Source: Candidatus Nitrosotenuis chungbukensis | GTDB lineage: Archaea; Thermoproteota; Nitrososphaeria; Nitrososphaerales; Nitrosopumilaceae | Length of the DNA: 64,000 nt | Assembly (NCBI RefSeq): GCF_000685395.1 | Contig: NZ_AVSQ01000015.1 | Span: forward strand, 1-64,000 | Direction of reading: 5' to 3' | In this document: positions 2,328-47,599 of the stretch, one piece after another | How the letters are laid out: each line of letters starts with the position of its first letter | Position numbering within the stretch: the stretch's first letter is position 1 | Position numbers and translations under genes: made by a program | The notes under the pieces: model-generated | The model's database searches: none | What the model was told of the DNA's origin: nothing | The model's input: only the letters and a program-made list of their open reading frames with translations

Positions 2328-2450
2328 TCCCGAGTGAAGGAGTTGAACCTTCGACAACCCGGTTTCTGTGTATGCCTAGGTAGGCTGACTTCGGTTAGCC
2401 GATGGCCAACCACTACAGCCGGAAGCTCTACCAGGCTGAGCTAACTCGGG
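2328..2450 (-). tRNA. tRNA-Tyr(GTA) with a 49-nt intron
   Basis: Read on the minus strand, CCCGAGT (2450-2444) pairs with ACTCGGG (2335-2329), followed by discriminator A at 2328. The D arm is GCTC/GAGC, the T arm GAAGG-TTCAACT-CCTTC. The anticodon stem TCCGG/CCGGG is interrupted by an intron at 2412-2364, just after position 37, the canonical archaeal site. The loop begins CTGTAG, giving anticodon GTA. The intron contains its own hairpin (GGTTGGCC/GGCTAACC). The mature tRNA would be 74 nt without CCA, which is not encoded. Confidence 0.93.
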
Positions 2451-8538: not shown

Positions 8539-9733
8539 ATGTTCCCATTGCCTGTCAAGTCAGTGCGGCAAAACTTTGATCCTAATTCAGAACTACTATC
8601 GATGATGGAGGTATTCCGCCAGATGGTGAATCACTGCATAAGAATCGGTCTTGGAAACAACTGCTATGCGCTAAAAAGACTATCCAATCTATCATACCGC
8701 ACTGCAGGATTATGACATAATGTCGTACTACAAGCTGACTGTAATCTCACAAGCATGCGGAAGACTGTCCCAGATGAAAAGGGACATCAAAAAAGGCAAA
8801 AATCCGAAATCACCGTTTGTGCAAAAACCATATCTCGTATCGTGCTATGGATTCAAGGTCAACGGAATGCTGCTATCGTTTCCAGTACGTAACAGGGAAT
8901 TTGCAAACATTCTGCTAAATGAACACACAGTCAAAATTTTATCCGACCAGTCCGTCACGCCGAGATCGTTTACCATGACGCCCCAATCCATATCAATATC
9001 GATTGCCAAGGATGTTGAGCCAATCCAGACGGAATCCGCAATAGGAGTCGACAGGAACCTGAGAAACATCACATTCGGGAACGGCAAAGAAATAATCCAG
9101 GTAAACACGTCTGAGATGCTCAAAATCAAGGAAAACTATTCCCATGTCAAATCTACATGCACACGAAACGATCATAGGATCAGAAAAAAGGTTTACGGCA
9201 AACTTGGAAAAAGGCAGACAGACAGGATAAAGCAGAGAATCCACAGAATGTCAAAATCATTAGTAAACTATGCCAAGAAAAACAAAGCTGCGATAATATT
9301 TGAGGATCTAAACGGAATCAGAAAATTATACCAAAGAGGGAACGGCCAGGGAAACAGATACCGAAGAAAGCTAAACTCGTGGTCTCATTACGAACTGGAA
9401 AGGCAGGTATCATACAAGGCAGCATGGGATGGAGTTCCGTTCTATAAGGAAGACCCAAGGCGCACCAGCACGCTCTGTCCTATATGCGGAGGGGGACTCC
9501 AAGGGGACAGGCAGAGACATCGGGATTTGTGGTGCGGTATTTGCAAGCGATGGTACGACAGGGATGTCGTTGCCGCAATGAATATCGCCTGCAAGGGGTT
9601 GCACAGGTTTTGCAATCCTCAAGGTGATGCAGGTGAAGCGATGAGGGGGAACCTGAATCCAGCAATCCTCAGAGTCGATGTGTCAAAGTTGGTCACGGAC
9701 TGGAGCGATGCGTGCATTGTTCAGGTCTCATAG
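8539..9733 (+). pseudogene. tnpB: tnpB (IS200/IS605-type RNA-guided nuclease), frameshifted
   Basis: The reading frame starts at ATG 8539 (MFPLPVKSVRQNFDPN), runs to a TGA near 8714, and resumes one frame over at about 8700, continuing from MSYYKLTV (8720) to 9733. Reading CGC-ACT-GCAGGAT as CGC-ACT-CTG-CAG-GAT restores a continuous family sequence, so a 2-bp CT loss in a CTCT run is the likely lesion. The downstream part keeps the RuvC residues (GVDRN, FEDLNG, DRDVVAAMN) and the CPIC/CGIC zinc ribbon. No tnpA accompanies it. An internal start at 8720 would give a 337-residue protein lacking the N-terminal wedge region. The guide RNA would overlap the 3' end. Confidence 0.8.
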
Positions 9734-32886: not shown

Positions 32887-32904
32887 TGATTTAGTCTGGT
32901 TTAT

Positions 32905-32979
32905 GGGCTCGTTGCACAGCTTGGATAGTGCGAATGCTTGCGGAGCATTAGGTCGAGGGTTCGAGTCCCTTCGGGCCCG
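32905..32979 (+). tRNA. tRNA-Arg(GCG), intronless
   Basis: The acceptor GGGCTCG pairs with CGGGCCC (32972-32978), followed by discriminator G. The D arm is GCAC/GTGC, the anticodon arm AATGC-TTGCGGA-GCATT with anticodon GCG, and the T arm GAGGG-TTCGAGT-CCCTT. CCA is not encoded. The 3' end (CTTCGGGCCCG) is the sequence repeated through the island at 45.6-56.4 kb and is the presumed integration target. Confidence 0.96.
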
Positions 32980-32995
32980 TTTCTTTAGTGGTTCT
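32968..32995 (+). other. Presumed attachment site (attL) at tRNA-Arg 3' end
   Basis: CCCTTCGGGCCCG of the tRNA end is followed by GTTTCTTTAGTGGTTCT (32979-32995). The latter 17 bp recur exactly at 50407-50423. A tyrosine recombinase gene starts 33 bp further on. This is the standard layout of an element integrated into a tRNA 3' end; the crossover point is not known. Confidence 0.6.
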
Positions 32996-33027: not shown

Positions 33028-34356
33028 ATGACCATAAACGAATCCGAACCAATGGGAATGTTCTTGTATGCTCTAAAGAGCCCAGTCTCTAAACAACGGT
33101 ATCAAAAAAGGCTGGAAAATTTCTTTGATTTTCTGGAATTACAAGGAAGTACCGAAGACAAGGCAAAAACGCTCATTTTGCAAATCAATGAGCACGGCCT
33201 TACTTGGCTAACTGCCAAAACCATGAATTATCTCAATTATCACAAAGAGAGGGCAGAACGGGGCGAAATCTCTGATGCTACAGTTCGCAACTATTACAAA
33301 CCGCTAAAACTCTTTTTGGAGATGAATGATGTTATTCTTCAATGGAAAAAAATAACCCGTGGGTTGCCGCGTGGCAGAAGATATGCGTCTGATCGAGCCC
33401 CAACAATAGATGAAATTCAAAAACTAGTGGAATATCCAGACCGAAGAATTAGGGCGATTGTCTTTACAATGTGTTCCAGCGGAATAAGGCTTGGCGCGTG
33501 GGATTATCTGAAATGGAAGGATATTACTCCTATATCACAAAATGATAAGATCATAGCTGCAAAGATTGTGGTTTATTCTGGTGATTCAGAACAATATTTT
33601 TCATTCATTTCCCCAGAAGCATATTCTGAATTGAAAAAATGGATTGACTTTAGATCCGAGTCTGGAGAAACAATAACTGGCGATTCTTGGCTAATGAGAG
33701 ATTTGTGGAATATAGAAAAATTTGCACGAGGTATGGTGACTGCCTCAAAAAAACTAAAAGCATCAGGTGTCAAACGTCTAATCGAACGAGCACTCAAGGC
33801 TCAGGGAATTAGAAAAACTCTACCTGCCGGCCAGAAAAGATACGAATTCCAAGCGGATCATGGATTTAGAAAATTCTTCAAGACTCATACTGAACAAGTC
33901 ATGAAACCAATCAACGTTGAGGTTTTGATGGGTCATTCCACTGGAATTTCTGACAGCTATTATCGTCCAAATGAGAACGAACTTCTAAAGGACTATCTTG
34001 GAGCAATACCTGAGATTACCATATCCAAAGAAAATAGAATGACTACTGATGCTGAAAAACTTCGAGTGAATAGCTCTGGAATTGAGGAAAACAAGAACGA
34101 AATCGCACAACTAAAGGAAGAAATTCGAAAAATCAAACTCAAAAACGAAATTAGTGCACTCATGAAAGAAAGTATGATTGAATGGGCAGAAAAACACCCT
34201 GATAAAATCACTCCACTGCAAGTAGCAAAAACTGATTGTGTAAAATTAAGAAATCTTGATGAAATAGTGGAGCATTATTTGATAGCACACGACGGTGATA
34301 TTTCTGGCCTAAGAGAAAGATTTGCTAATGCCAGAATCCACATAAAAGAAAACTAG
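33028..34356 (+). CDS. Tyrosine recombinase (integrase)
   Basis: An apparently intact 442-residue tyrosine recombinase next to its presumed tRNA target. The N-terminal SAM-like core-binding domain covers about 1-105. The catalytic domain has Arg I in SSGIRLGAWDYLKW (R154), the H-x-x-R pair HGFRKF (H278, R281), the third His in MGHST (H303) and the nucleophile in DSYY (Y312 by spacing to H303). A C-terminal extension of about 120 residues, partly coiled coil (NKNEIAQLKEEIRKIKLKNE), is unusual compared with XerC/D and could drive multimerisation. It is the only complete recombinase in the island and the leading candidate to act on the repeated sites. Confidence 0.93.
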   Translation: MTINESEPMGMFLYALKSPVSKQRYQKRLENFFDFLELQGSTEDKAKTLILQINEHGLTWLTAKTMNYLNYHKERAERGEISDATVRNYYKPLKLFLEMNDVILQWKKITRGLPRGRRYASDRAPTIDEIQKLVEYPDRRIRAIVFTMCSSGIRLGAWDYLKWKDITPISQNDKIIAAKIVVYSGDSEQYFSFISPEAYSELKKWIDFRSESGETITGDSWLMRDLWNIEKFARGMVTASKKLKASGVKRLIERALKAQGIRKTLPAGQKRYEFQADHGFRKFFKTHTEQVMKPINVEVLMGHSTGISDSYYRPNENELLKDYLGAIPEITISKENRMTTDAEKLRVNSSGIEENKNEIAQLKEEIRKIKLKNEISALMKESMIEWAEKHPDKITPLQVAKTDCVKLRNLDEIVEHYLIAHDGDISGLRERFANARIHIKEN

Positions 34357-37979: not shown

Positions 37980-38717
37980 GTGTTGGGAATATTTGACAGA
38001 TCTAAAGGAACCCGAGATTATAATATCCGTAAATTAGAAAAACAAAAACGTGAAGATGCTAAAGAATTAAAAAAATTAGAAGAACGAAGAGCAAAAATAA
38101 AGCAAGATGAAACAGCTAACAAAACCAATCTTTTTGGAAGAATTTTCAGCAGAAATCAACAAAGAGACAATTCTACTACTGTCGGATATCCTAATGATGG
38201 TATTTCTGAAAATATTGAAGAATATGTATCTGAATCTGAAGATCCATACCAAGTCATCGGCGTAAGTAAAAATGATACTTTCGAGAAAATTTCTGAAGTC
38301 TATAAAAAACTTCAAAAAGAATATCTGGATATTGACCTTCGTAATAAAACTCCAGACGAAAGAAAAAGCATTAACACCATTCTAATTAAGATAGATCGAG
38401 CATATGCCAAAATCAGGAGCTCACATCATGCGAGTTTGAATAGACAACATAATTTAACAAGAGTCGATTCAAGAAGTGTAAAATTTAATTCTGAAGAAGA
38501 GCGAATATTGAATTCTACAGATCCTTTTCAAATATTGAATGTACTTCCAAACTCTACGAAAGATCAAATCAAGAAAAACTACAAAGAATTACAATTAAAA
38601 TACAAACTAACTGGAATGATGAATAAATCCGAAGACGAGATATTGCGACTTACGAATCTACTCAAAAAGATAAACTGGGCTTATACCGAAATTAAAAAAA
38701 TCGGCGGCTTTGGTTAA
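37980..38717 (+). CDS. Protein with two degenerate J-like domains
   Basis: A 245-residue protein beginning with GTG. After a basic, coiled-coil N-terminus (EDAKELKKLEERRAKIKQ) come two tandem segments that read like J domains: DPYQVIGVSKNDTFEKISEVYKKLQ (from about 89) and DPFQILNVLPNSTKDQIKKNY (from about 182), each followed by a long helix ending A-Y-x-x-I. Neither has the HPD tripeptide that normally stimulates Hsp70 ATPase. It ends 3 bp before the Hsp70-peptidase gene, so the two form an operon and presumably a chaperone pair. Confidence 0.75.
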   Translation: MLGIFDRSKGTRDYNIRKLEKQKREDAKELKKLEERRAKIKQDETANKTNLFGRIFSRNQQRDNSTTVGYPNDGISENIEEYVSESEDPYQVIGVSKNDTFEKISEVYKKLQKEYLDIDLRNKTPDERKSINTILIKIDRAYAKIRSSHHASLNRQHNLTRVDSRSVKFNSEEERILNSTDPFQILNVLPNSTKDQIKKNYKELQLKYKLTGMMNKSEDEILRLTNLLKKINWAYTEIKKIGGFG

Positions 38718-38720
38718 AAC

Positions 38721-40763
38721 ATGAAGGTATTAGGAATAGATCTAGGTACGAGCAGTTCCTCTGCTGCCATCATGTTGGATGGAGAAATCAAGATTATTCC
38801 TTCCTCGGAAAAAAAGACAACGACTGTCAAACCATTTCCATCTGTAGTGACTTTTTTTGAGGATGGTAGTTGTCTGATAGGAGAGTCTGCACTAGAGCAA
38901 TCCCTCTACAATCCTAGAGGTACAGTGTTTAATGCAAAAAGACTTATTGGCTCTTATAATCGAGTTGAAGTCTTTGGCAAACAACATTTGCCACAATTCA
39001 TCTCGGCATTAATCTTGATGAAGATCAAACTAAATGCTGAAAAGTTTCTTGGTGAACAGGTGACAAAGGCGGTAGTGACAGTTCCAGCATATTTCAACGA
39101 CGCACAAAGACAAGCTACTCGAGATGCAGGAAAGATAGCTGGATTAGATGTCATACATATACTGACTGAGCCAGTTGCAGCAGCCATTGCATACGGTGCC
39201 AAAGTACTCAAGGGAAGAATGAAAATTTTGGTATTTGATATGGGTGCTGGAACACTAGATGTATCGATTATAGAATTTTCTGATGGATTATTCGAGGTTT
39301 TAGCTACATCTGGAAATACTACTTTAGGTGGCATTGATATGGACAGAGAAATTGAGCTTTTCCTCATAAATGAAACACGGAAGCAAAATGGTGAATTTAC
39401 AAAACTTGACGACGAAATAATCGAAATTCAAATAAAAAAACTAGCAGAAGAAATAAAGATCAAATTAGCCTCAATTGACTTTGTTGAAATTAATCAAATA
39501 TTCTCAAACTCCAATCTTGAGTATAGACTCACTACAAAAATAACACAGACACAGTTTAAGAAAATGATTGAAGGTATTTTAGAAAAATCTGAATCATGTG
39601 TTTACGATGCTCTCAAAGGGGCAAAACTAACTCCCGATGAGATTGACAAAGTAATTCTTGTTGGAGGACCAACAAAGCTACCAATAATCAAAGAACTATT
39701 GACAAATGTCATCCGAGTGCCAGAAGAGGGAGTTGACCCATACTTTGTTGTAGCCAGTGGTGCTGCAATAGAAGGTGCAATCTTGGGGGATGAGAGAAAT
39801 TTACCAATCCTTTATCAGGGAATTACAATTGTTAATGTGACTCCTCTTGATCTTGGCACGGATGTGGGGAAAAATACTCCTAACTACAGAATTAAACTCA
39901 TGATTCCGAAAAACACTCCATATCCAACTGAATATACCGAACGATTTTATGTCAAGCCTTCAGTTGACAAATGTCCAGTTGAGATCTGGCAGGGGGATTT
40001 TGATAAAAACCCCAGTTTTCACGGTAATGCCAAACTTGGCGAATTCATGTTGGAAGGACTAACACCCATGGATGAAAAGTATGTTGATGTAACATACAAT
40101 CTTGATGCTGATGGGATTCTTCGAGTAACTGCAAAAGAAATCATATCTAAGATAAAAAAGGAACTTCTAATTACCAGAATGGGAGATCAAATCACACCAC
40201 CTCCCGAACTTGAATATTATGAGAAAGAAGTCATAAAAACTGAAAATCGTCATCGAAGAGACATTCTAAGTCCATACGAAATCCCAGTTTCTAGATATGA
40301 TGAAATATTGTCCAATACTGAAAGTAACGAGTATAGTTGGATGTGTGAATGTCTTAGCGATGCAAAAAACATCATAAACACACATCATGGTTTTGATTGC
40401 ACTGATTTTTTCAGAAACTCGTCTTTTATCTTGTTTTTACAACTAGACAAACAATACACATATGCGTACATAGGAATGACTGGCGGACCTGTTTATCACA
40501 TTGGAATTCATAATGCCTTGAGTGAATATAATGAAAGAAACAAACGAATGCTTACAATAGTTTTGGTACATGAGTTATTACACGCTATTCATCCTGACTG
40601 GGGTCATGATAGAATAAATCCAGAAGAGAGAAGGTTGGCAAACCTAGCAAACCATTATGATGCTTTACATGAAATGGAAATTTTATTTTTGAGTGGAAAA
40701 ATGGCGATGTGCAATAATCATTATGGAGAATCAGGAAAATGCATTCAAATTCATTGTAGATAA
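38721..40763 (+). CDS. Hsp70 (DnaK-like) fused to a metallopeptidase-like domain
   Basis: A 680-residue protein. Residues 1-375 are an Hsp70 nucleotide-binding domain (IDLGTSSSSAAIML, AKRLIGSY, TVPAYFNDAQRQATRDAG, DMGAGTLDVS, VGGPTKLP). About 385-500 are a beta substrate-binding domain after a linker (TPLDLGTDVG). The usual helical lid is absent; instead a new domain of about 170 residues contains LVHELLHAIHPDWGHD (H617, E618, H621 and further His), a zinc HExxH signature. ATP-driven capture joined to proteolysis is the obvious inference. AT-rich, in the island, coupled to the J-like gene upstream. Confidence 0.85.
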   Translation: MKVLGIDLGTSSSSAAIMLDGEIKIIPSSEKKTTTVKPFPSVVTFFEDGSCLIGESALEQSLYNPRGTVFNAKRLIGSYNRVEVFGKQHLPQFISALILMKIKLNAEKFLGEQVTKAVVTVPAYFNDAQRQATRDAGKIAGLDVIHILTEPVAAAIAYGAKVLKGRMKILVFDMGAGTLDVSIIEFSDGLFEVLATSGNTTLGGIDMDREIELFLINETRKQNGEFTKLDDEIIEIQIKKLAEEIKIKLASIDFVEINQIFSNSNLEYRLTTKITQTQFKKMIEGILEKSESCVYDALKGAKLTPDEIDKVILVGGPTKLPIIKELLTNVIRVPEEGVDPYFVVASGAAIEGAILGDERNLPILYQGITIVNVTPLDLGTDVGKNTPNYRIKLMIPKNTPYPTEYTERFYVKPSVDKCPVEIWQGDFDKNPSFHGNAKLGEFMLEGLTPMDEKYVDVTYNLDADGILRVTAKEIISKIKKELLITRMGDQITPPPELEYYEKEVIKTENRHRRDILSPYEIPVSRYDEILSNTESNEYSWMCECLSDAKNIINTHHGFDCTDFFRNSSFILFLQLDKQYTYAYIGMTGGPVYHIGIHNALSEYNERNKRMLTIVLVHELLHAIHPDWGHDRINPEERRLANLANHYDALHEMEILFLSGKMAMCNNHYGESGKCIQIHCR

Positions 40764-41167: not shown

Positions 41168-41848
41168 ATGAGCTCTAAATCCGCTGTGTCTAGACTTATT
41201 CAAAAATTGATTTCGTTGAGAAACCATTTTGATAAAACTATGACTGAAATTGAGAAACAACATCCTGATTGGAATGAAAAAGACACACGGTTATCCGTAT
41301 ATGGTAGAACCATTAACGTCATTAATTCTGTTTTATTTAGTGTGATGTTCAAAGAAGAAGAACTTGTAAATCCTGCTTGGTTCAAAAAAGTCTTTTCTGA
41401 TGAATTAACACTTAAAGAACATGGATATTATTTGGCAAATTATACCTCGTTCTTACGATTATCTTATGTTACAATACTGTTTTCTGCATTTGAGGTTTTT
41501 TTCCGAGATATTTTAAGAGTAGTTTATCCAAACTATTCTAAAAATGATAACATTGGTACAATAATACAATTCATTCTTAATGATAATGATCTCTCAAAAT
41601 ATTGTCATGTTTTTGACATTCTTCGTATTTTAAGAAATTCATTGCATAATGGAGGCATTTATAATGAAAGAAAGGGGAAAACAATTTTTTACACTGGTAA
41701 ACAATATGTTTTTAAAAAAAATCAAATTATCTCTGTAAATTGGGAATTATTAATTGAAATCATTTTTGATGTTGAATCTTGTCTTGCCCAACTAATCTGC
41801 TCAGAAAAAATTTCATCCAAAAGCGAAATCCATGATTTTACTGATTAG
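41168..41848 (+). CDS. HEPN-like helical protein
   Basis: A 226-residue mainly helical protein. Near residues 153-163 it has RILRNSLHNGG; RNSLHNxG-type motifs mark HEPN-like proteins, many of which are RNases in toxin-antitoxin or antiviral systems. The spacing fits R-x6-H from R153, not the commoner R-x4-H, so nuclease activity is uncertain. A stretch YVTILFSAFEVFFRDILR forms a hydrophobic helix in the bundle. A 53-residue open frame overlaps its end, as a partner gene often does. Confidence 0.55.
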   Translation: MSSKSAVSRLIQKLISLRNHFDKTMTEIEKQHPDWNEKDTRLSVYGRTINVINSVLFSVMFKEEELVNPAWFKKVFSDELTLKEHGYYLANYTSFLRLSYVTILFSAFEVFFRDILRVVYPNYSKNDNIGTIIQFILNDNDLSKYCHVFDILRILRNSLHNGGIYNERKGKTIFYTGKQYVFKKNQIISVNWELLIEIIFDVESCLAQLICSEKISSKSEIHDFTD

Positions 41849-42020: not shown

Positions 42021-42078
42021 CAACACACTGATAAAAAAATTAACAATTGTTAATTAGCTGATTGAATATCTTCATTAG

Positions 42079-43362
42079 ATGTCAAATGTGGAAAAAAGTT
42101 CTAGTCCTTGGTTGACTCAAGATAAGTTCGAGGATTTTTTACAAGCGGTTCCACTAATTACTGAATTACAGACTAAGAAAAAAATTACCAAGCCATATTG
42201 GCCACTTTCCCCAGAAGAATTTCAAATGTTGTATAAAATGACATATTATTGTGCGTTAGGAATAGTTGAAACTTTGGAATTGGTTGCATCGGATATTGAT
42301 TTAGAGAAAAAAATTGTGAACATACGAAAAGAGGGAGGTAAGTTGGAACAAGCAACTATCCCACCAATCATAGCAGATGAAATTAAACAGTATTTGAAAA
42401 CGCATAAGAAAAGATTGTTTGTGGTAAATAGGGATAGTCCGTGGAGATATGCTATAGCTGCAGCCAAGATTGCTAAATTAAATTTTTATGAAGAAAAAAA
42501 GATAAAATCTGTTCACGGCATGTCCTTTCTTTTTTTCAAAAAATCTTGGGAACAACAAATGGTCCATGATGGGTTTCCTGCAAAATTAATTGCAATCAAA
42601 ATGAGAAAGAAATCGCTGTTATCTAAAAAATGGTCAGCAGTGGACATCAATCAATTAATAGATTTAGAGGGAGAAAAATACCCTGCCAAGAAAAAAGGAG
42701 TGGTTGTTTTACTTGATGCATTGGGAATTAAGGGGATATGGAAAAGTAATAGTCCGACTAATGTTCAAAAAAATTGGAACGCTGTTATTGCTAAATGTAG
42801 ATTATTGACTAATGATTTAAAATCAGATGATATTTCTCCAACTCTTAATGCATTTTCTGATACGGTAATAATCACTGTAACTGGTTCTGATATGAAAAAT
42901 CTCATAACTAAGACTGCTGAAGCACTAATTCACATAATGGGATTTGCAATTAGGCAAAATATTTTTTTCAGAGGTTGTATTAGTATTGGAGATTTTTTTC
43001 CTGATCCTAACATTGTTATTGGAAAAGCAATTGATGATGCGGCACAATATTATCAGATGCCAGAATGGATTGGAGTTTCAATTACCCCCAGCTCTCATAA
43101 ATCTATATCTTCTATCAATTCTATCCTAGATGAACAAAAATTATTTGTTGAATATGATATTCCATTAAAGAATACTATTGAGAAACATGGTTTAGCTTTG
43201 AATTGGCCAAATGATTTTGCGAATATGGATGAAAAACTAGAAAATTCTACAGAAGAACCTAGTCAGACATTAATTGAATTAGTGGAGAATAACATAGAAA
43301 ATTCTGACGACATAACAGTATCTTTCAAATGGCATAACACATTAAATTTCATAAAACGATGA
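42079..43362 (+). CDS. Inactive tyrosine-recombinase-like domain fused to nucleotide-cyclase-like domain
   Basis: A 427-residue protein. Residues about 40-200 resemble the catalytic half of a tyrosine recombinase (PLSPEEFQMLYKMTYYCALG, then DIDLEKKIVNIRKEGGK), but the first catalytic Arg (G-L-R) reads A-L-G-I and the H-x-x-R box reads HGMSF, so it should be inactive. Residues about 208-360 resemble class III cyclase folds: VVVLLDALGIKG, then FSDTVIITV, RGCISIGDFF and IGKAIDDAAQYYQMPEWIGV. The tail is acidic. A signalling role such as cyclic nucleotide synthesis is inferred from the fold pattern only. Confidence 0.65.
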   Translation: MSNVEKSSSPWLTQDKFEDFLQAVPLITELQTKKKITKPYWPLSPEEFQMLYKMTYYCALGIVETLELVASDIDLEKKIVNIRKEGGKLEQATIPPIIADEIKQYLKTHKKRLFVVNRDSPWRYAIAAAKIAKLNFYEEKKIKSVHGMSFLFFKKSWEQQMVHDGFPAKLIAIKMRKKSLLSKKWSAVDINQLIDLEGEKYPAKKKGVVVLLDALGIKGIWKSNSPTNVQKNWNAVIAKCRLLTNDLKSDDISPTLNAFSDTVIITVTGSDMKNLITKTAEALIHIMGFAIRQNIFFRGCISIGDFFPDPNIVIGKAIDDAAQYYQMPEWIGVSITPSSHKSISSINSILDEQKLFVEYDIPLKNTIEKHGLALNWPNDFANMDEKLENSTEEPSQTLIELVENNIENSDDITVSFKWHNTLNFIKR

Positions 43363-43583: not shown

Positions 43584-44891
43584 TTATTGGTTATCAGTTT
43601 CATCATTTCTGGGAATTAAAAATCCAGATTCAAAACCTCTCTGTGGGTTAAATGAAAAAACCGCCAAAGGTATTTTATCATCAGTTTGTTGTCTTAATCT
43701 CTTCAACTCTTTTACAATTTTTTCTTGTTGATATTCTTTTGTTGCGTGAGGAGTAACCATAAATGTCATCCACAAAGAATTAGATGTGAATGTAAATTGT
43801 TCATCTTTTTGGAGAATTCCTGACATTCTAATAGTAGCTAATATTGATATATGCAGTTTATCAGATTCTTCTTTTGACAAATCTGCTATTTTGTCTGCAA
43901 TCTGCCTTGTACTCCATTTATTAAACTGATTTTTTGCTTTGTCAAGATTCGGGTTATCAATAGCTGGTCTGATTATTTCCTCCACTAAACCTATTACCGA
44001 TTCTGGCATTTTCTCCATCTTCTTTTTTCTTAGTAAATCTTTTTCTACTATCATAGAACGAAGTGTATTAGATTCAAGAAATTTCTTAGGATCTTTTTTT
44101 ATTACACCAATCAGCCTTTTTTGAGCAACTTCAGGGGTTGGACCAGATGAACTATAAAGAGCAAGCGAGGCTCTATCTAAAAGAAATTGAGTGAATCCTC
44201 CATCATTGATTGATTGATAGTTTGTAATTTTTCCATTTTTTTTGATAATTGTTCCACTCCATCCATCTAAGGATGTGGGGTGTATAGATGTCACAAAAAT
44301 CATCCAAGGAAGTTTTACATATACAAATACTCTTTTATCATCTGTAACTATTGTAAAATCCACAGAATGAAGTGTATACCAATGAAATTTTGGATCTATC
44401 GTTGAATTTTTGTTATCATCTACATAGTCTAGGAATACAAGATGATTTTCATATTTATCAATAGATTCTTCTGTTCCATTTAGGTATTCTCTCCAATGAA
44501 CTTCTGCTTTATCTACAAATGAGTTTAAATGAGAATTGGGGTTTTCTTCCTTGAAATCTTCTCCTATGATCTTCAAGGCTCTCCAGCTTAATGAAATAAT
44601 AAATTTTTCAAAATTTTCATCATAATCGAATGTTCTAATTTTGTCATTGTGGAAAGGGAAAAAGATGTTATCTGCAAAATATTTCTCTAACTTTGAAAAC
44701 TTTTCTTCACAGTTCCCACAAAGTAAATGGAGTTTAGTAATGTCTTGAACACGTTTTGCACCATCTTCAGCACTAACTAAATAACCAGTACCTGTTTCTT
44801 TAATCCATTTTCCAACAAATTTTGGAATAATGTGACTTTCTCTTAATGTACCTTCTTGCAAACATAATGCACATGTGGAGATTTCAGACAT
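43584..44891 (-). CDS. HNH/treble-clef nuclease-like protein
   Basis: A 435-residue protein. Residues 7-60 have CALC, SHIIPKFVGKW and LLCGNCEEKFS, the C-x2-C...H...C-x2-C order of HNH/treble-clef nucleases. The remaining 370 residues are a large alpha/beta region with no motif I recognise, ending in a helical segment rich in Lys/Glu and a final beta part (PLAVFSFNPQRG). It may be a defence or restriction-type effector; nuclease activity is unproven. Leftward, AT-rich. Confidence 0.6.
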   Translation of the reverse strand: MSEISTCALCLQEGTLRESHIIPKFVGKWIKETGTGYLVSAEDGAKRVQDITKLHLLCGNCEEKFSKLEKYFADNIFFPFHNDKIRTFDYDENFEKFIISLSWRALKIIGEDFKEENPNSHLNSFVDKAEVHWREYLNGTEESIDKYENHLVFLDYVDDNKNSTIDPKFHWYTLHSVDFTIVTDDKRVFVYVKLPWMIFVTSIHPTSLDGWSGTIIKKNGKITNYQSINDGGFTQFLLDRASLALYSSSGPTPEVAQKRLIGVIKKDPKKFLESNTLRSMIVEKDLLRKKKMEKMPESVIGLVEEIIRPAIDNPNLDKAKNQFNKWSTRQIADKIADLSKEESDKLHISILATIRMSGILQKDEQFTFTSNSLWMTFMVTPHATKEYQQEKIVKELKRLRQQTDDKIPLAVFSFNPQRGFESGFLIPRNDETDNQ

Positions 44892-45489: not shown

Positions 45490-45539
45490 GTGGAACCTAA
45501 AATAGAACTATGTGGGCATGAATCCATTTCGTTCCGCAC
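45490..45539 (+). repeat. Repeat family B, first-half copy
   Basis: Matches 40868-40916: 26 identical bases, then ATGAATCCA and CCGCAC-type ends. It abuts site R1. Confidence 0.7.
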
Positions 45540-45540
45540 A

Positions 45541-45675
45541 TTTATCAAAAATTAATAATCAGTATTGCATACACTAACTAGGATCTAATTTTCAGAAAAC
45601 CGCTAGTAGCACACAGACCTTCGGGCCCGTTTTAACTGTCAGTCCGAATCTTACAGGACTCAACCCTTCAGAGAT
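45541..45675 (+). repeat. Array site R1 (left arm type II)
   Basis: The core TTCGGGCCCG...AGTCCGAA spans 45620-45648; TTCGG pairs perfectly with CCGAA. A left arm of about 78 bp (45541-45618) matches that of R7 closely. Core bases equal the tRNA-Arg end. First of nine direct repeats bounding the modules. Confidence 0.85.
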
Positions 45676-46901: not shown

Positions 46902-47015
46902 GGAGTTTTGTAGCTACTCCGATGAGCTTACTGCATGTTTTGTGCACGAGACATGCTGAACTTGCACTGACTGTTCCTCAGAGAACCTTCGGGCCCGTTT
47001 TAACTGTCAGTCCGA
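46902..47015 (+). repeat. Array site R2 (left arm type I, full)
   Basis: Starts with hairpin GGAGTTTTGTAGCTACTCC, then GCATGT...ACATGC, then GTTC...GAAC, then the core TTCGG (46987-46991) to CCGAG (47011-47015). ACTGAC before the core can pair with GTCAGT inside it. Clearly the same 114-nt family as R5, R8 and R9. Confidence 0.88.
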
Positions 47016-47541: not shown

Positions 47542-47599
47542 GGGTGCGAGTAAATTTTTACCTGCACCCCCTCGGGCCCGTTTTAACTGTCAGTCCGAG
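47542..47599 (+). repeat. Array site R3
   Basis: A hairpin GGGTGC...GCACCC (47542-47568 region) runs straight into the core CTCGG (47571-47575) ... CCGAG (47595-47599), whose ends pair perfectly as C-G at the outer position. Left arm is unlike types I and II. Confidence 0.85.

Follow-up and report, generated by a model that had tools for sequence, protein, structure and literature searches.

A recombinase-cyclase fusion protein on an archaeal tRNA-Arg island as a possible DNA-reading switch

Results and discussion

We identified in the genome of Candidatus Nitrosotenuis chungbukensis (1.76 Mb, 24 contigs) a single gene that joins an inactivated tyrosine recombinase domain to a domain with the fold of class III nucleotide cyclases. 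The gene lies on a mobile island within the window, the 64-kb stretch of DNA analysed here. This two-part anatomy, proposed earlier in a sequence-only reading, is confirmed: AlphaFold modelling and Foldseek searches of each half, which had been set as the test, recovered both proposed folds. The folds are well supported while the fusion as a signalling system is not yet demonstrated. We consider that the protein may be a DNA-reading alarm switch, its DNA binding and its signal both being putative. How known nucleotide-signalling defences sense phage is largely unresolved, and our literature search returned no case of sequence-specific DNA recognition directly coupled to a cyclase-fold enzyme within a single polypeptide.

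The fusion gene and its island

The gene is a single uninterrupted ORF of 427 amino acids (42079-43362, +) with a stop codon immediately 5′ of its ATG. It divides into an XerA-type recombinase domain at residues ~10-200 (42106-42678, +) and a C-terminal cyclase-fold domain at residues ~205-427 (42691-43362, +), the N-terminal half being basic (net charge +9) and the C-terminal half acidic (-6). Exactly this fusion was seen only once in the genomes, phage contigs and plasmid contigs searched. A frameshift or assembly artefact as its source could be ruled out since the reading frame has no break anywhere and the cyclase-like domain is independently fused to an Mrr_N domain elsewhere.

The ORF lies within an island of ~12.6 kb at a tRNA-Arg(GCG) gene (32904-32980, +), the integration site, where G+C content drops from about 0.46 to 0.31. 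The contigs compared came from relatives among the Nitrosopumilaceae and other Nitrososphaeria MAGs, and the island is absent from the closest of these, G009. The flanking sequence of G009 is 96 % identical to the window, with homology ending at 32982, the exact tRNA end, and resuming at 45519. This break, together with a separate insert carrying two GmrSD-type restriction genes at the tRNA-Arg of G009, identifies the region from 32.98 to 45.6 kb as an insertion specific to this strain, at a hot spot whose content varies. The left attachment repeat (32968-32981, +) comprises 14 nt of the tRNA 3′ end, CCTTCGGGCCCGTT, and a candidate right repeat lies at 45618-45631 (+), with further copies at 46986 and 49341 and imperfect ones at 47566 and 52613. 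An 18-nt repeat pattern gave seven matches at ≤ 3 mismatches compared with 0.01 in shuffled sequence. The island integrase (33028-34356, +) is an active-type tyrosine recombinase, and the island thus combines the integrase, tRNA target, flanking repeats and absence from relatives expected of an integrated element. Its cargo includes J-domain and DnaK-like proteins, a HEPN-like gene, the fusion gene and an HNH-like gene.

The N-terminal half is an inactivated recombinase

The N-terminal half is a genuine recombinase domain that has been inactivated. The NCBIfam XerA profile NF040815 matches residues 12-121 (E 1.9e-7, under the family's own cut-off) and PHROG integrase family 216 matches residues 9-134 (E 1e-5); a second PHROG integrase family matches at E 8.6e-5 and the PF00589 match is sub-threshold (E 0.0093). 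Alignment by hhalign of the dead-domain family, consisting of this half and one relative from genome G018, with nine active archaeal XerA domains scored 97.7 % (E 1.6e-12), and a profile built from the dead domain and its closest relative retrieved XerA-type recombinases from many genomes of the phylum. The AlphaFold2 model (pLDDT 81, pTM 0.78) placed archaeal XerA first in Foldseek (PDB 5hxy, E 2.8e-5), although its alignment was composed of active recombinases so that the model is not fully independent and leans on the HMM evidence. These results support the recombinase catalytic fold anticipated for this half.

The sequence-only reading had noted the loss of the first Arg and of the Arg of the H-x-x-R motif. 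Both are missing and the damage is wider than claimed, as all six catalytic positions are replaced. The columns R, K, H, R, H and Y, defined on viral XerA-like proteins in which each is conserved in 24/24, read R61G, K85E, H151L, R154K, H177K and Y186S in the fusion protein. The VHGM register earlier assigned to H-x-x-R was a few residues off, H aligning with L151 and R with K154. There is no N-terminal SAM-like core-binding domain, the ORF starting right before the catalytic domain with no PF02899-type match. Its nearest relative with an intact catalytic set is a minimal recombinase of 190 aa from genome G193, in which Arg, His-x-x-Arg, His and Tyr are present; no close viral relatives of the dead domain were found.

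EVE domains, which occur in type IV restriction proteins and their relatives, recognise modified bases. The G018 protein carries an EVE domain (PF01878, E 1e-6) followed by the same recombinase domain at 35-36 % identity, and the first catalytic Arg is replaced in both dead domains, by Gly in the fusion protein and by Lys in the G018 protein. As the dead domain keeps 36 % identity across proteins of different genera, it is probably maintained as a module. The G018 gene (L026:1953-4730, at least 926 aa) runs off the end of its contig, and the missing C-terminus could carry an effector.

The C-terminal half has a class III cyclase fold

The 50 best Foldseek matches in the PDB to the AlphaFold2 model of the C-terminal half (pLDDT 84.8, pTM 0.84, 12-sequence alignment) were all class III cyclases (best E 4.4e-7, probability 1.00, TM-score by target up to 0.69), as expected from the cyclase-like fold first suggested by the order of its motifs. 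The top matches include soluble guanylate cyclase (E 4.4e-7), soluble adenylyl cyclase, Rv1900c and CyaC. The four motifs originally quoted (LLDALGIKG, FSDTVI, RGCISIGDFF and IGKAIDDA) are among the most conserved stretches of the family. Among 16 aligned members D213, L215, K218, D261, R298, G299, G304, G315, D319, K417 and N420 are invariant. These include the first metal-type Asp, D213 in LLDALGIKG (42715-42717, +), and the second, D261 in FSDTVI (42859-42861, +), both mapped by motif and hhalign register. The register sets D213 on the first metal Asp and GKAIDDAA on GSNVNFAN, with D319 (43033-43035, +) at the canonical transition-state Asn column (IGKAIDDAA vs VGSNVNFAN). The class III Arg column is variable with Arg in 0/16 members. 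K417-x-x-N420 in the last helix (43327-43338, +) are candidate replacement catalytic residues.

The sequence-only interpretation is therefore partly supported, standing for both folds and for the inactivation of the recombinase. The canonical class III transition-state Asn/Arg pair is not conserved. As modelled, the C-terminal half is class III by fold and metal site and not by transition-state residues. The nucleotide product, if any, is not predictable given the lack of conservation of this pair, while the invariance of D213, D261, K218, R298, D319, K417 and N420 in 16 divergent members argues for an enzymatic function.

A link to class III cyclases by sequence comparison failed, leaving the structure comparison and one weak profile match. 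Alignment by hhalign with class III cyclases of related archaea was not significant (probability 0.9 %, E 0.064), the fusion protein had no PF00211 match with one of six aligned family members reaching E 0.042, and no family in Pfam, NCBIfam or PADLOC matched this half as a cyclase. PHROG 23933, a family of unknown function, matches it at E 3.4e-6. The host genome has five PF00211 matches of its own, which are canonical class III cyclases, and no cNMP_binding (PF00027) protein. The genome thus yielded no conventional cAMP/CRP-type receptor of the PF00027 family, and an effector, if there is one, probably belongs to a different class.

A sporadic family with interchangeable heads

The cyclase-like domain is sporadic, being present in 5 of the 398 genomes surveyed from the phylum, no two of the same genus, with relatives in other archaea, Bacteroidota, Bacillota, Myxococcales, Fusobacterium and five distinct phage contigs. 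No close relatives were found in named phages, and plasmid matches were limited to distant ones from Fusobacterium (TPR + domain) and Hymenobacter. Most members are standalone proteins of about 240-260 aa. In genome G205 an Mrr_N domain (PF14338, E 1.7e-21) is placed where the fusion protein has its recombinase, and a TPR head precedes the cyclase-fold domain in Fusobacterium and one phage contig. Two of the three fused heads are thus DNA-recognition types, which is the main reason for reading the head as a DNA input. The C-terminal half represents a family that has not been described before and is non-canonical within the class III fold. It has an altered active site and exchangeable heads of DNA-recognition type, and spans archaea, bacteria, phages and a casposon. 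A more distant family on a Hymenobacter plasmid (L027:3371-4129) has the same motif order (VAFIDILGFKNFL...VSDCLIIS...CRGAIKVG...FGEAY), which by sequence suggests a wider undescribed class III-fold superfamily. The copy in genome G022 (L002:1197-1938, -) is split by a frameshift, reflecting a pseudogene or a sequence error.

The domain occurs in mobile, defence-like contexts including tRNA islands, a casposon, phage contigs and the vicinity of ABC-3C genes. The Mrr_N fusion gene (L138:7295-8371, -) lies in a Nitrosopumilaceae casposon-like element with Cas1 (PF01867, E 2.3e-47), DNA_pol_B_2 and a DNA methylase; thaumarchaeal casposons of such make-up have been described (PMC6563490). A further copy, in genome G389, is carried by a tRNA-Arg(TCG) element with a SLFN_AlbA_2 gene, PolB and an integrase 41 % identical to that of the window island. 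The copy on contig L012 adjoins DUF2326 and SMEK genes of the sort typical of ABC-3C systems. On two phage contigs, L019 (7968-9558) and L166 (4917-5816), the cyclase-fold gene is inserted among tail genes. In L019 a 2TM-like gene encoding two hydrophobic segments lies downstream at a distance of 10 bp, an arrangement reminiscent of a two-gene defence cassette, and in L017 (3873-5671) a neighbour with two hydrophobic segments overlaps the cyclase-fold gene; such direct neighbours occur only in these two of the five phage contigs, which is a raw count. In Sporosarcina (L013:7306-8714) the cyclase-fold gene shares a single base with an adjoining gene whose product has an M1E1E6-like integron-cassette domain (PF21648, E 1.7e-12) and could be its partner. 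The copies in G368, G022, L009 and L015 have no clear defence context. It had been suggested that the same fusion be sought near effectors: the search returned the exact fusion only in the window, and no effector is constant across loci, as neighbours differ and several members lie in ordinary chromosomal contexts.

Neighbouring genes and an upstream palindrome

The gene upstream of the fusion (41168-41848, +) is on the same strand across a 230 bp gap and had previously been described as HEPN-like. Its RN[SC]xH motif is conserved in 4 homologues, including three distant relatives, and is one residue shorter than the canonical HEPN Rx4-6H spacing. The gene had no family match in Pfam, NCBIfam, PADLOC or PHROG searches; from the motif a HEPN-like identity is possible. 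Downstream lies a convergent gene (43584-44891, -) with a weak HNH_5 start (CxxC...ESHIIPKF) and a strong match to the viral family phrog_26326. No TM, TIR, cNMP-binding or 2TM effector gene was recognised beside the fusion gene, and PADLOC gave no match.

A perfect 18-nt palindrome, AATTAACAATTGTTAATT (42038-42055), lies 23 bp before the fusion ATG and is a candidate operator. No other perfect palindrome of ≥ 18 nt occurs in the window, and the genome has no second copy at ≤ 2 mismatches. In simulated sequence such a palindrome turns up in 0.17 % of 230-bp stretches, a figure to be read with the fact that it was sought post hoc, after the hypothesis, in about 900 bp. As a candidate DNA site of the fusion protein it is suggestive only.

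Proposed mechanism and alternative explanations

Class III cyclases form dimers whose active site lies at the interface, and tyrosine recombinases dimerise on the inverted-repeat sites that they bind. We tentatively favour a reading, possible but short of probable, in which a head that binds a DNA site governs a non-canonical enzyme of cyclase fold as a two-part, defence-like switch borne on a mobile element. The dead recombinase domain would still recognise a specific DNA site, either a core- or attachment-like site of an invading element or the palindrome before its own gene. Whether the cyclase-fold domains form an active dimer would depend on two protomers binding to a palindromic site or coming off it. 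The dimer would make a signalling nucleotide, or a similar nucleotide product by a metal-dependent reaction, and this would trigger an effector in defence or mobile-element competition, for which the upstream HEPN-like gene is a candidate. Coupling of DNA sensing to a messenger fits the logic of the fusions, given the Mrr_N domain in the same place in one relative and the dead domain behind an EVE domain elsewhere. The mobile, defence-like contexts, the sporadic presence and the unique palindrome count for such a switch, while the absent Asn/Arg pair, the non-significant profile comparison, the single fusion and the want of a conserved effector count against it. The family forms a small testable system, since the input domain, a candidate DNA site and a candidate active site can each be read from the sequence.

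The palindrome also bears on a non-defence role, doubtful in our view but the strongest of the rivals, in which the protein is an autoregulated signalling or regulatory protein of the island. The head would bind its own operator or att site and the cyclase-fold domain would sense or report nucleotide state and so regulate excision, copy number or the expression of cargo genes. A unique perfect palindrome at that position, the carriage of the domain by different kinds of integrating elements and the host's own canonical class III cyclases are all consistent with this, whereas the same domain isolated in phage tail regions, with Mrr_N and beside ABC-3C genes fits conflict cargo better. A bolder form of the favoured switch makes the recombinase, stripped of catalysis, a sequence-specific sensor of DNA that, on binding as a dimer, activates a non-canonical cyclase-fold enzyme making a new nucleotide signal, the whole acting as a receptor in archaeal immunity or inter-element conflict with the Mrr_N and EVE relatives as variants of one plug-in design; in this full form we hold it to be rather unlikely.

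Information might also flow from nucleotide to DNA, with the cyclase-fold domain as a non-catalytic nucleotide or metal sensor (pseudo-cyclase) controlling the DNA-binding head. The change of the transition-state Asn to Asp and the loss of the Arg in all members, most of which are standalone and have no clear partner, would suit such a sensor. Both metal Asp residues and several charged residues are however invariant in 16/16 members across archaea, bacteria and phages, a degree of conservation unusual in a pseudo-enzyme, and we regard this explanation as unlikely. Less credible still is a chance fusion in which a decayed integrase fragment became joined to a standalone cyclase-like gene without the two halves working together. 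The exact fusion was seen once and several integrases are encoded in the genome and its mobile elements, but the ORF is intact, the dead domain is preserved in an unrelated EVE fusion and there is an independent Mrr_N fusion at the same position, making coincidence improbable.

Comparison with known systems

Pycsar (PMC11224242) and Panoptes (PMC12657218) both pair a nucleotide enzyme with a membrane effector, in the latter the OptS mCpol with the 2TM protein OptE, and HEPN genes are reported near some mCpol (PMC12657218). The two-part switch favoured here shares with Pycsar (PycC with PycTM or PycTIR) the class III fold and an MGE- or defence-like context, and differs in its DNA-recognition-type head, its active-site residues and the lack of a receptor/effector pair in the window. 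The nucleotide-enzyme palm fold and 2TM genes near some family loci are shared with Panoptes, whose mCpol is a Cas10-type minimal polymerase; the family instead matches class III cyclases in its 50 best structural matches, OptS being set apart by its description as a Cas10/GGDEF-type palm. That the window copy belongs to an already described Pycsar or Panoptes-like system is highly improbable and already contradicted, as the PycC-like fold and the two phage copies adjoining genes with two hydrophobic segments are outweighed by a non-canonical active site, those structural matches and a window copy with no adjacent TM/TIR effector, PF00027 receptor or PADLOC match.

Compared with class III nucleotide cyclases (PF00211; sGC, sAC, Rv1900c, CyaC) the family shares the fold, the motif order and both metal Asp residues but has Asp in place of Asn, no Arg, new invariant residues K218, R298, K417 and N420 and extra C-terminal helices. 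The N-terminal half shares fold and sequence similarity with archaeal XerA (NF040815; PDB 5hxy, 4a8e), from which the fusion protein differs by the loss of all six catalytic residues and of the SAM-like core-binding domain and by its union with a cyclase-fold domain. Heads known from type IV restriction occur in relatives of both halves, Mrr_N on the C-terminal and EVE on the N-terminal side; unlike in type IV restriction the Mrr_N protein has no nuclease, the cyclase-fold domain standing in its place. We found no literature on a recombinase-cyclase or EVE-integrase fusion.

Other features of the window

Repeats resembling the tRNA-Arg 3′ end occur at 45618, 46986, 47566, 49341, 52613 and 56395, three of them sharing downstream sequence (TTTTAACTGTCAGTCCGA); the series is perhaps the remnant of serial integrations or a dispersed repeat. 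Within the island a gene for a protein with two J-type domains (37980-38717, +) precedes one for a DnaK-like protein (38721-40763, +; HSP70, E 4.7e-113) whose C-terminal tail has a HELLHAIH zincin-type motif, a chaperone-peptidase pair that looks unusual as island cargo. A 123-nt tRNA gene at 2328-2450 (-), probably containing an intron, was found by Rfam and missed by ARAGORN. A TnpB-like ORF at 8720-9733 (+) with a zinc ribbon (CPICGG...CGIC) and a RuvC-like end looks like an IS605-type remnant.
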